A DNA stretch of 43,318 nucleotides from an uncultured Treponema sp. (GTDB lineage Bacteria > Spirochaetota > Spirochaetia > Treponematales > Treponemataceae). Made by a program: the position numbers and the translations under genes. The notes beneath the pieces are model-generated. The model saw only the letters and a list, made by a program, of their open reading frames with translations. It searched no databases and was not told the DNA's origin. Below are positions 11,092 through 15,900 of this stretch, piece after piece; position 1 is the stretch's first letter, and the number at the start of each line of letters is the position of its first letter. The stretch is taken from contig CAMOWQ010000004.1 of the NCBI GenBank assembly GCA_946628495.1, forward strand, positions 1 to 43,318. Direction: 5' to 3'.

Positions 11092-12657
11092 TTATTTTGT
11101 TTCTTCAGGTTCGTCTTCTACAAGAACTGTTTTTGCAGTTACCTGAATCTTTTCATCATAGCAGCTGAAAATCTGGTCTACTTTTTCCTTTTCCATTTTT
11201 GGAGTAATAAGGCTTACAAGAGGAACAATTATAAGACCTCCGACCATTGCAACAGCGCCGCAGTTAATCGGATTCAGGAAGTTTAAGAACATATTTACAA
11301 CTGTAATTCCAACGCCGTAAATAAAACATGCCCAAACCGATGCGCGTGTAATTTTTTTAGAGAAAAGACCGTACATAAACGGAGCAAGGAAGGCACCTGC
11401 AAGTGCACCCCAGGAAATACCCATTAACTGAGCAATGAATGTCGGCGGATTAAGAGCAATAATTACCGAAATTACAATGAAGAATACAATAAGAATTCTC
11501 ATGATAAGAACAGTTTTCTTTTCGTCCATCTTTTTAGCAACAGTTTCTTTGATTACATCAAGAGTAAGTGTAGAACTTGAAGTAAGAACAAGAGATGAAA
11601 GGGTAGACATTGAGGCAGAAAGAACCAGTACGATTACAACACCAATTAAAATGTTTGGAAGCGTAGAAAGCATTTCTGGAACAATGTTGTCGTAAAGGAG
11701 TGCGCCTGTCATTTCTCCACCTTTATGGATTGCAGGAGTATTGAAAAGTCTTCCAAATCCACCAAGGAAGTAGCTGCCGCCTGCAATAATGATTGCAAAG
11801 AATGTAGAAACGATTGTTCCGGTTTTTACAGCTTTTTCGCTTTTTATAGCGTAGAATTTTCCTACCATCTGAGGAAGTCCCCAGGTACCAAGGGAAGTAA
11901 GGATTACAACTCCAAGAAGGTTCAGAGGATCAGGACCAAAGAAAGATACAAACGCACCGTTCATGCCTTTAAGAGCTTCTGTTGTATTTGCTGGATCTAC
12001 AGGAATTTCAGAAAGCTGTTTTACGGCAGAAAGGAAGCCGCCTTTTCCGTTAAGAACTGCAAGAATTACGGCACAGATACCAATCAGCATGATAATTCCC
12101 TGAATAAAATCGTTGATTGCTGTTGCCATGTAACCGCCAAGTATTACATAAACGGCTGTAAGAAGAGCCATTCCGATTACACAGTAAGCATAAGGAATAT
12201 CAAAGGCAAGTCCGAACAGTGTAGAAAGTCCTTTGTAAACCGAAGCAGTGTATGGAATAAGGAAAACGAATGCAATTGCAGAGGCTGTAATTCTGAGCGC
12301 TTCGCTTGAATAGCGTTTGCCAAAATATTCAGGCATAGTCTTTGCATCGATATGATGTGTCATTACTCTGGTACGGCGTCCTAAAATTACCCAGGCGAGC
12401 AGAGAACCGATAAGCGCGTTTCCAATGCCTACCCATGTTGAAGAAAGTCCGTATTTCCAGCCGAACTGTCCTGCATAACCAATGAATACAACTGCGGAAA
12501 AATAAGAAGTCCCGTAGGCAAATGCAGTAAGCCATGGACCGACAGAACGGCCGCCGAGTACGAATCCATTTACATCAGTGGAATTTTTCCTTGAGTAAAT
12601 GCCTACACAAATCATTATTGCAAAGAAAACGATGAGCAGTGCAATTTTGATGAACAT
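11092..12657 (-). CDS. sodium:solute symporter (SSS family), predicted tyrosine or aromatic uptake
   Basis: A 521-residue inner-membrane protein with about 13 hydrophobic segments. The N-terminal GGRSVGPWLTAFAYGTSYFSA and the GGYMATAINDFIQG stretch near residues 174-187 match the signature of the SSS/PutP family, which couples Na+ entry to uptake of small organic solutes such as proline, pantothenate or sugars. Sequence alone does not give the substrate. The leader at 12694-12838 carries a run of tyrosine codons and an attenuator, which points to tyrosine or a related aromatic compound (inference). GGAGG (12665-12669) lies seven bases before the ATG. The C-terminal tail is charged and cytoplasmic. 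It converges on lepB. Confidence 0.9.
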   Translation of the reverse strand: MFIKIALLIVFFAIMICVGIYSRKNSTDVNGFVLGGRSVGPWLTAFAYGTSYFSAVVFIGYAGQFGWKYGLSSTWVGIGNALIGSLLAWVILGRRTRVMTHHIDAKTMPEYFGKRYSSEALRITASAIAFVFLIPYTASVYKGLSTLFGLAFDIPYAYCVIGMALLTAVYVILGGYMATAINDFIQGIIMLIGICAVILAVLNGKGGFLSAVKQLSEIPVDPANTTEALKGMNGAFVSFFGPDPLNLLGVVILTSLGTWGLPQMVGKFYAIKSEKAVKTGTIVSTFFAIIIAGGSYFLGGFGRLFNTPAIHKGGEMTGALLYDNIVPEMLSTLPNILIGVVIVLVLSASMSTLSSLVLTSSSTLTLDVIKETVAKKMDEKKTVLIMRILIVFFIVISVIIALNPPTFIAQLMGISWGALAGAFLAPFMYGLFSKKITRASVWACFIYGVGITVVNMFLNFLNPINCGAVAMVGGLIIVPLVSLITPKMEKEKVDQIFSCYDEKIQVTAKTVLVEDEPEETK

Positions 12658-12693
12658 AAAAAAACCTCCATGCCGTAGTGAATGCTGCGGCTT

Positions 12694-12733
12694 AAAAAAA
12701 AAGCCCGTCGTGCATGATAGTACGACGGGCTTT
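12694..12733 (-). terminator. attenuator terminator (segments 3:4) of the tyrosine leader
   Basis: On the minus strand AAAGCCCGTCGT (12722-12733) pairs perfectly with ACGACGGGCTTT (12700-12711) over a loop of ten bases. It is followed by an unbroken T tract to 12694. It lies between the leader peptide and the symporter gene, so it terminates the symporter message prematurely unless segment 3 is captured by segment 2. Confidence 0.93.
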
Positions 12734-12834
12734 GTAAATCCTGAGTCAAAACTGGAAAAAAGTTTATCGTGTTTCAGAATTCAACAAAGCCGTCATAGAA
12801 TAATAATAGTAATAATAGAATGCTTTGTTGAATT
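12721..12834 (-). promoter_or_regulatory. tyrosine-codon attenuator: segments 1, 2 and 3
   Basis: Segment 1, AATTCAACAAAGC (12822-12834), and segment 2, GCTTTGTTGAATT (12778-12790), are a perfect 13-bp inverted repeat flanking the tyrosine codons. Segment 2 extended (12784-12797) also pairs with segment 3 (12721-12735): GACGG with CCGTC and CTTTGT with ACAAAG, with one bulged C, plus three more pairs including a G-U. Segment 3 in turn pairs with segment 4 to make the terminator. The 1:2, 2:3 and 3:4 pairings are mutually exclusive in the classic trp manner: a ribosome stalled at the tyrosines covers segment 1 and frees segment 2 for antitermination. Confidence 0.9.
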
Positions 12835-12838
12835 TCAT
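12764..12838 (-). CDS. tyrosine-rich leader peptide (attenuator)
   Basis: A 24-codon frame read on the minus strand, ATG at 12838-12836 and TAA at 12766-12764. Residues 8-13 are six consecutive tyrosines (codons TAT TAT TAC TAT TAT TAT), preceded by phenylalanine at residues 3 and 7. AAGGAAAAGG (12847-12856) is a strong ribosome binding site eight bases before the ATG. The stop codon lies just past segment 2 of the attenuator. Its purpose should be to sense charged tRNA-Tyr by ribosome stalling, not to make a functional protein. It is 106 bases upstream of the symporter. Confidence 0.92.
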   Translation of the reverse strand: MKFNKAFYYYYYYSMTALLNSETR

Positions 12839-12863
12839 CTTATATACCTTTTCCTTATATTTT

Positions 12864-12891
12864 TATCTGATACTATAAATAGTAGCAGATA
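12864..12891. promoter_or_regulatory. inverted repeat overlapping the leader promoter (operator candidate)
   Basis: TATCTGATACTA (12864-12875) and TAGTAGCAGATA (12880-12891) are inverted copies with 11 of 12 positions matching and a four-base centre. The repeat covers the -10 box and the expected transcription start of the minus-strand leader, a position typical of a repressor site. Confidence 0.55.
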
Positions 12892-12906
12892 TTGCACCTG
12901 TGTCAA
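12879..12906 (-). promoter_or_regulatory. promoter of the tyrosine leader and symporter
   Basis: A perfect -35 TTGACA (12901-12906) and a -10 TACTAT (12879-12884) are spaced by 16 bases. The expected start is near 12872, about 34 bases before the leader ATG. Confidence 0.7.
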
Positions 12907-12972: not shown

Positions 12973-15900
12973 ATGGTATTGAATATGTTTGTAAAAAAAT
13001 CTTTTGTCATTTGTTTATTGGTTTTGACATTTTTTACAGGTATTTTTTTTACAAGTTGTAAAACTGACGCAGATCCGCTGCCGGGAACTACGCCAGCTAA
13101 TACAAACCCTGAATCAAATACGCCTTCCTCAAATTCAAATTTCTGGGGAATTTGGGTTAGAATGGATAACGGAAAGGAATACGAAATTCTTGAAACAACC
13201 GTCCTATACGATAAAAAGAGTTATGCAATAACTTCATGTACCGCGGATTCTCTTGCGGTTGCTTCTCTTGGAACTTTTAAAAAAGAATCAGACCGTGTAA
13301 TGGTGTGCGATAAAATTCCATACTATAGAAAAGGCGGTACAAATCTTGAATATTCACTTAAACTGGTAGGCTTTTCTTCATCAACCGTTGCTTCTGCAAG
13401 ATCTGCGGCTACAGTTCTTTCCGGTGTAAAGGGAAGGGGAAAATCAAAGAAATATCCGAAAAGCGAAGTAGAATCTGTAAGCGATTCAGAAGGTATTATT
13501 AAATTTAAGGCGCCAACTGTAAATGATGTTCAGACTGTAGAAATAACGTCAGCTGATTCGGTTGTTGTTGTTCCAGATCTTACTATTAATAATAGCGGTG
13601 ACTACATGGGAACCGTTGCTCTTGTTGGAAAAGATGATTATAACCTTAAAATCACCGGTACAATCAGTGAGAACCAGAAAGATAACGGTTATTTATATGG
13701 AAATGAAGCAAAGTCTTATGAGATGGAACTTACCATTACAAATATAAGTCAGAATGACTGTTCTACATCTGCATGTTTTGTAGAATCTGAAGATCCAAAC
13801 TTAAAATTAAAGTCTCTTGACGGAACCGACTTGTCTGGATTTACAATTTCAACTCTTAAAGGCGGTGCTACAAAAAAAATAAAACTTTCACTTTCTTACG
13901 GAAAAATCTCAAATCCGTATGTTGATACAGGTATTTCTGTAACGCTCCAAAATCCGTTTACCGGTCAGGAATGGAAGGACTATGTTCCTTTAAGATTTTA
14001 TAAAGGTTTAATTCCTATTGCTATAGCAGCAAAAAGTCCTGAAGATAACAATAAAGCTTCATTAAACGGATTTATTATATATCCGGATGGAAATAATCAG
14101 TATTTTACAATTGAAAATAAAAAGTCTAAGGTTTTATATGTACCGTCATTTGGTTCAAAGACACCTTTTATGCTTGTATTCAGCGGAGCTTCTGTTACCC
14201 AAAAACTTTCTGACAGTACGGAAATGTATTATACCGTTGAACCGGGAAAAATTGTTGCAAAAGATGTTGTTGTTTCCGGAAAGGATATATTAAAGTTTAT
14301 TCCTTTTGGTGGAAATAATCATTCAGAAAATTCTGCTTATACGGTTACAGAAGGTTTCGAAGCCTATTTAAGGGAAGGCGAAATTGATTATTACAGCATA
14401 ACAACAGATTCAAATAAATTTTATGCTCCGGAAGGAAGCATGCTTTATACAGTAAGTTTTGTAAACGAAAAAGGTGAAGCGCCAGAGACCTTTTTAGTAA
14501 AAGACGGAACTACATTAACTGAAGCACAACTTCCTGTAATGTTATTTAAAGATTATGAATTCTTAGGCTGGTATTCTGGAGATTCTGTAGTTAGGGCAGG
14601 AAGTTTTGAAGTAAGATCAAATGTTGAACTTAAAGCAAAATGGCAGTTAAGAAATTATCAGATTACTTATCAGCTTGCTGGAGGCTCGAATAATATTGCA
14701 AATCCATCTTCATATACAATCGAAACAAAGCTTATGGAACTGCTTAATCCTGTAAGAAATGGTTATTCTTTTGACGGATGGTATAAGGGAAGTGTTACAA
14801 GTGGAAATAAAATAGAAAAAATTGGCGGCGGAGCCTCTGGAGCAATTACGCTTTGCGCAAAATGGACTCCTGTAAAATATTCTATTACCTATGAAACAAA
14901 TGGCGGTACAAACTCTGCTTCTAATCCTGCTGATTATACAATAGAAACAGAAAATATTACGCTTGCGCCTGCTTCTAAAACTGGTTTTGCGTTTGGCGGC
15001 TGGTTTACTAAAAATGATTTTAGCGGAACAAAACAGACTGCTATAGCAAAAGGAAATACAGGCAATAAATGTTATTATGCAAAATGGCTTAAAGCATGTA
15101 CTGTAAATTATGTTACAGAACACGGAACTGCTCCTGGGGCAATTATAATTGGTGAAACAGATTATTTTGATTCAAGTCAGCTGCCTGTCCTTACTGATGC
15201 AAATTATTTGTTTAAAGGATGGTATGTCGGTACAACAAAGGTTACCGCAGGTAGTTATAAAGTAACAGGTGATGTAACGCTAACTGCTAAATGGGCTGAA
15301 AAATATACTGTTACTTACGTAAATAATGCACATGGAACGGCTCCAAAAGCTCTTGAGGTGGAAACTGGAACCACTTTAGCTGCTACGGCTCTTCCTAAAC
15401 TTACTGAAAAAGGCTGGAAATTCAGAGGCTGGTATACAGACAGTACCTTTACAGAAAGCACTAAGGTTTCTGCTGGTTATAAAGTTACGGCTTCTGTTAC
15501 TCTTTATGCAAAATGGGAAGAATTTAATGGACCTGATGACAGCTATGTTTTTGTAAAGGGTGGTACAGTTGTAGGAGACAGTAAATATAATAGTTATTAT
15601 TCCGGAGTATTCCCTTCTGGAAGAACCGTAACTTTAAGCAGTTTTTATATGTGCGACCACGAAGTAACTCAAAGTGAATATACGGCTGTTATGGGAAGTA
15701 ATCCAAGTGGTTGTTCTTCAAGTCCTTTAAGCGGTGAAATTCAGGGAAACAGACCTGTAGAATATGTAAGCTGGTATGATGCAATATATTTTTGTAATAA
15801 AAAGAGTGTAAAAGACGGTTATGATCCTTGTTACAGCGTAAATGGAAATACTGATACTACAAAATGGAATTACACTCCTCATAATGGAAACATGATAAGC

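Follow-up and report, generated by a model that had tools for sequence, protein, structure and literature searches.

A predicted tyrosine-codon attenuator ahead of a sodium symporter gene in Treponema, and related leaders before DAHP synthase

The window analysed here, a 43,318-nt stretch of DNA from an uncultured Treponema sp., contains a gene for a sodium/solute symporter of the SSF family (11092..12657, minus strand; Pfam PF00474, E 1.6e-54) that is preceded by a short tyrosine-rich open reading frame and a terminator, and the question raised by this locus is what such an arrangement would sense and what the symporter would carry. A sequence-only reading had placed a ribosome-mediated attenuator in front of a sodium symporter, and the family assignment of the gene agrees with this. 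In our assessment the locus very probably encodes a transcription attenuator in which the ribosome gauges how much charged tRNA-Tyr is available; the gene under its control would code for a sodium-coupled importer whose cargo is most likely tyrosine or aromatic amino acids.

Leader ORF and alternative helices in the window

On the minus strand, the elements are arranged in the order promoter-like site, AAGGAAAAGG, leader ORF, terminator (12733-12694) and symporter ATG at 12657, the last accompanied by a Shine-Dalgarno sequence, GGAGG, at 12665..12669. The promoter-like site, TTGACA-16-TACTAT (12906-12879), was located by a consensus scan and comprises a -35 box (12901..12906) and a -10 box (12879..12884), with 10 of 12 positions matched and TG preceding the -10 box. 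The Shine-Dalgarno region of the leader, AAGGAAAAGG (12847..12856), has 8 nt separating its AGG from the ATG. The leader ORF (12764..12838, minus strand) consists of 24 codons from an ATG at 12838 to a stop at 12764 and specifies the peptide MKFNKAFYYYYYYSMTALLNSETR, an assignment based on the sequence and on the homologous leaders L009, L014 and L042. Its six consecutive Tyr codons (12800..12817), which read TAT TAT TAC TAT TAT TAT, are the putative control codons. The 24-codon leader, ribosome binding site and Tyr run claimed in the sequence-only reading are all present, and an attenuator of this type is expected to have a promoter, a ribosome binding site and a short ORF in which control codons stand in a row, translation of the ORF being predicted.

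In the assembly of the same genome (82% complete, 203 contigs), uninterrupted stretches of five TAY codons are confined to two sites, the window leader and an oriC-like site before dnaN. The TAT/TAC repeats before dnaN (L220, C120 of this genome, and L221) resemble DnaA-trio elements of an origin and were rejected as false positives. A near-perfect palindrome of 26 bp, ATCTGCTACTATT/TATAGTATCAGAT (11/13 positions; 12865-12890, minus strand), spans the symporter -10 box; it is operator-like and suggests a repressor besides the attenuator. At L016, a locus without the leader, perfect 15-bp arms, TTACATTTTGTTACT/AGTAACAAAATGTAA, were observed near the promoter.

The leader RNA can form three alternative helices, all encoded on the minus strand. 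Segment 1 (12822..12834) pairs with 12778-12790 in a 1:2 hairpin, AAUUCAACAAAGC/GCUUUGUUGAAUU, of 13 bp and -17.4 kcal/mol, a value as low being found in 0/500 shuffles. Segment 2, the 5' side of the antiterminator (core 12784..12797, with an extension to 12774), forms a duplex with segment 3 (12721..12735) that has a core of 14 pairs with one bulged C (-18.3 kcal/mol) and extends beyond this core. Segment 3, assigned by folding and because it changes in concert with segments 2 and 4, is common to the antiterminator 2:3 and the 12-bp intrinsic terminator stem-loop 3:4 (12700..12733; -21.1 kcal/mol, z -7.8), so that the two are mutually exclusive, as expected of an attenuator. The terminator ends in a tract of nine U (12694..12702), three of which pair with AAA of the stem. 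The dimensions given earlier for the hairpin (13 bp), antiterminator (about 14 pairs) and terminator (12 bp, nine U) hold. The 185-nt leader as a whole has a folding z of -4.75, with 0/200 dinucleotide shuffles as good. A simple terminator scan did not list the window terminator, whose loop exceeds the permitted 3-8.

From these features we infer a course of events that includes transcription of the leader, ribosome stalling and a direction of response. Transcription would start ~7 nt downstream of the -10 box, with a ribosome trailing RNA polymerase across the leader ORF. When Tyr-tRNA is ample, the ribosome would reach the stop codon and cover or pass segment 2, segment 3 would pair with segment 4, and transcription would end ~37 nt ahead of the symporter. 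When Tyr-tRNA is scarce, the ribosome would stall in the six Tyr codons, breaking 1:2 and leaving segment 2 free; 2:3 would form before segment 4 exists, and the symporter would be transcribed. In folding calculations on nascent RNA up to the terminator loop, a ribosome placed on the first Tyr codon leaves segment 3 in 2:3 (-28.0 kcal/mol); a ribosome that has reached the stop codon masks segment 2, and 3:4 forms. The full RNA at equilibrium slightly favours the terminator even with a stalled ribosome (-30.7 vs about -28.0), and therefore the switch must be kinetic, decided during transcription. Other attenuators likewise decide during transcription.

Tyrosine leaders at symporter orthologues

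Orthologues of the symporter with 59-83% identity are found in about half of 200 Treponema genomes. Their upstream regions were fetched at 90 loci, 89 of them long enough to read, and a run of at least five Tyr codons was present in three of the 89 (the window, G010 and G133). A fourth symporter leader with a Tyr run, outside the 89, was identified in Treponemataceae bacterium RUI404 (L042). The leader was found at only 4 of about 90 orthologues, most being without it, and in a maximum-likelihood tree the four symporters that have it do not form a single clade, which weighs somewhat against the attenuator reading. Because the carriers are both rare and scattered, the leader must, as judged from these sequences, have been lost repeatedly or gained repeatedly, so that its gain or loss is frequent; a single gain without losses was unsupported by the tree.

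The four peptides are MKFNKAFYYYYYYSMTALLNSETR, MKYSKSNYYYYYYYSQSMACCKFN, (V)ILNRSSYYYYYYSLSMACHKSLCNK, which starts at GTG, and MAIRSSYYYYYYYSRSLACRFSSSLN. Six or seven Tyr are kept in all four while the other residues vary, and the three further leaders in related Treponema bear out the conservation of the Tyr run to be expected from the sequence-only reading. Each of the four has a start codon with a Shine-Dalgarno sequence and is followed by a terminator; the 5' arm of this terminator is able to base-pair with the nucleotides right after the Tyr run. The RUI404 leader is the weakest, its terminator being mismatched (-10.6 kcal/mol). The 1:2 pairing beats shuffles in three of the four leaders, with values as low found in 0/500 shuffles for the window and in 2/500, 2/500 and 30/500 for the others.

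The antiterminator duplexes formed within each species have energies of -18.3, -16.5, -18.1 and -17.0 kcal/mol. When segment 2 of the window is paired with segment 3 of the other three leaders, the duplexes reach only -9.3, -8.7 and -11.9 kcal/mol, and the reciprocal combinations, segment 2 of the other three with segment 3 of the window, reach only -11.0, -10.7 and -8.4 kcal/mol. One triple of positions in segments 2/3/4 reads C/G/C in the window and U/A/U in G010 and G133, and the window carries an extra U/A/U triple present in all three segments. The compensatory changes to be expected in the stems are therefore found among the symporter leaders, where segments 2, 3 and 4 change together.

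These changes bear on whether the terminator merely separates adjoining transcripts, the Tyr-rich ORF having arisen by chance or encoding a small protein with a function of its own. Intrinsic terminators are frequent in intergenic DNA. At this locus, however, the neighbour on the other side of the leader begins near 12973 on the plus strand and is divergent from the symporter, so that the terminator has only the leader transcript to stop and none from upstream. Segment 3 also pairs with the 3' part of the ORF in four species with coordinated changes, and the peptides differ outside the Tyr run. We regard a simple separating terminator as very improbable, and the attenuator remains the preferred interpretation.

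Aromatic leaders before DAHP synthase

When runs of Tyr codons were sought across the genus, such leaders turned up in a second place, before the gene for 3-deoxy-7-phosphoheptulonate synthase (DAHP synthase), which catalyses the first step of the shikimate pathway and of aromatic amino-acid synthesis. The identity of the enzyme was confirmed by NF006421 and TIGR01361 (NCBIfam), both above cut-off, and the control amino acid in this set is a product of the regulated pathway, as is characteristic of attenuators. Among the best 30 loci of the genus (L225-L254), 28 have readable upstream DNA, and a script identified a Tyr-rich leader ORF with a terminator in 25 of these. On visual inspection a 26th, L242, shows a terminator and a run of Tyr and Phe, with no start codon identified, and at L227 and L236 there is no leader and another gene lies directly upstream. 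In a second set of 40 more distant loci (L260-L299), 37 contain an ORF whose aromatic cluster score is at least 9, and 38 contain a terminator; scores of at least 9 occurred in 1.0% of 800 dinucleotide shuffles and on 0/40 antisense strands. At one extreme the leaders use Tyr alone (MKNITYAYYYYYYSHKSCRVLAK) and at the other Tyr, Phe and Trp together (AYFYFSFYWFS), with Tyr plus Trp (YAYYYYWYS) in between. The occurrence of Tyr/Phe/Trp leaders before DAHP synthase throughout the genus is broader than the symporter finding itself.

As a means of finding leaders, a bare pattern of TAY runs was rejected, as it also matches oriC-like repeats before dnaN and unrelated sequence. A strict pattern run over 294 genomes of the order matched in the same genus only, which does not bound the distribution of the leaders because the pattern misses mixed Tyr/Phe/Trp leaders. 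In the genome from which the window derives (the 82% complete assembly), DAHP synthase of the leader-bearing type was not found; a TyrA-like gene is present.

Among the close DAHP-synthase loci, a triple in segments 2/3/4 passes from U/A/U to U/G/C to C/G/C, the route through a wobble pair that would be expected. In the 15-row alignment, 92.5% of cells are paired in 2:3, as against at most 47.5% with the partner slid. Covariation in this alignment is modest compared with shuffles because the sequences are close, and RNAalifold recovers the terminator and not 2:3 because it reports one structure. The 1:2 pairing was unsupported in the two DAHP-synthase leaders that were tested against shuffles.

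The two types of leader differ in how translation would begin. The symporter type has a normal ribosome binding site, whereas the ORF of the DAHP-synthase type would be nearly leaderless, since its ATG lies ~6-12 nt past the -10 box (L225, L247, L248 and L254). Formation of a leader peptide without a ribosome binding site has a precedent in ilvBNC of C. glutamicum, as indicated by the title of a reference listed in PMC4046766.

The recurrence of this leader type also helps to decide what is being sensed. The attenuator could respond to translation in general, as under stringent conditions or antibiotics, with the Tyr run as merely a slow stretch, given that a stall anywhere in the early ORF would free segment 2. 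The specific retention of the Tyr run among otherwise variable peptides and the presence of the same leader type, across most of the genus, ahead of the enzyme that opens aromatic synthesis both speak against such a general sensor, which appears improbable. Sensing of charged tRNA-Tyr is preferred.

Several observations connect the two types. G010 carries both a symporter leader and a DAHP-synthase leader; TATTACTATTATTATTCTC recurs in the leaders of G056 and G103 before DAHP synthase and in those of G010, G133 and L042 before the symporter; and in several of these leaders a Cys follows a few residues past the Tyr run. A common origin of the symporter and DAHP-synthase leaders is plausible from these shared sequences. 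We lean, with some reserve, towards a genus-wide system of aromatic leaders of shared origin, in which Tyr alone or with Phe and Trp would govern entry into synthesis at DAHP synthase and pure Tyr would govern tyrosine import.

Symporter substrate, precedents and significance

The symporter product of 521 residues scores barely above the cut-off of NCBIfam TIGR00813, and among the named SSF equivalogs the proline symporter PutP comes closest to it; because this match falls far below cut-off, the protein sequence does not name the substrate. On the strength of the Tyr leader and of the Tyr-rich leaders before DAHP synthase, the symporter probably imports tyrosine or aromatic amino acids. The attenuator could also operate as proposed with a symporter that carries a non-aromatic compound (e.g., proline or pantothenate), tyrosine serving as a nutritional proxy; this alternative concerns the substrate and not the mechanism, and is compatible with the attenuator as such. 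It is in line with PutP being the nearest named equivalog, albeit below its cut-off, and with the orthologues in other phyla, since a Tyr leader was not seen before those of Lachnospiraceae and Prevotella and a T-box, sought as independent evidence of substrate, was detected by Rfam at none of 20 orthologous loci of other phyla. Against it, the twin leader would control aromatic synthesis, and amino-acid-specific T-boxes have served to predict the substrates of transporters (PMC2494555). A non-aromatic substrate is accordingly held to be unlikely, though it deserves more weight than the alternatives to the mechanism, and an aromatic substrate is favoured. The orthologues in Lachnospiraceae and Prevotella (L039-L111) have 62-74% identity, which suggests that the symporter has been transferred between phyla.

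The mechanism appears to be that of the known trp, his and pheA attenuators; what appears new is the reading of Tyr, the phylum, and the sharing of the device between uptake and synthesis. The E. coli trpL, hisL and pheL leaders likewise combine competing 1:2, 2:3 and 3:4 helices with a run of control codons and a terminator that has a U tract, the first gene coming next; the window leader differs in that it reads Tyr, targets an importer (DAHP synthase in relatives) and belongs to a spirochaete. No Rfam match at gathering threshold, T-box included, was obtained in the window, and the leader families scored below threshold on the window leader (His_leader 30.1/49, Trp_leader 21.3/41 and Thr_leader 13.4/55 bits).

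The statement in the sequence-only reading that no Tyr-reading leader peptide has been described stands in that no description was found in the open-access literature, and such a leader seems undescribed so far; it requires qualification by a near precedent and an early hypothesis. The AroR leader peptide of C. glutamicum likewise stands ahead of a DAHP synthase gene, aroF, and has the control codons Phe-Tyr-Phe, and is cited as responding to Phe and not to Tyr (Neshat 2014, as cited in PMC11802643; also PMC4046766). For E. coli aroF-tyrA, attenuation through Tyr-tRNA was put forward as a hypothesis in 1980 (Camakaris, as cited in PMC2659441 and PMC8632094); the idea, Tyr-tRNA sensing before DAHP synthase, is the same, and the citing passages mention no leader peptide. 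In Acholeplasma, the uORFC-13-1 motif likewise places a predicted leader ORF and terminator before aroF, but in another phylum, with Phe codons arising from a U run and no Tyr run described (PMC8632094). The Tyr T-boxes of Firmicutes (tyrS, NhaC-type transporters) also sense tRNA-Tyr charging and control uptake and charging genes through a terminator (PMC2494555). In these, unlike in the window leader, the uncharged tRNA binds the RNA directly, without a leader peptide, and the T-box survey found none in 6 spirochaete genomes (PMC2494555). In 2010, leader peptides were stated to be known only from Proteobacteria and Actinobacteria, a His leader being added in bacilli (PMC2965389).

The DAHP-synthase leaders are present in Treponema genomes that are complete or nearly so, which makes the leader idea testable with RNA end-mapping data. 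The symporter belongs to a group that had no assigned substrate and that Lachnospiraceae and Prevotella also possess; the Tyr leader suggests one. If the genus-wide system is true, it would represent an attenuation regulon in spirochaetes and the first leader-peptide attenuator to read tyrosine, and the leader ORFs of the synthesis genes would start very close to the 5' terminus of their transcripts.
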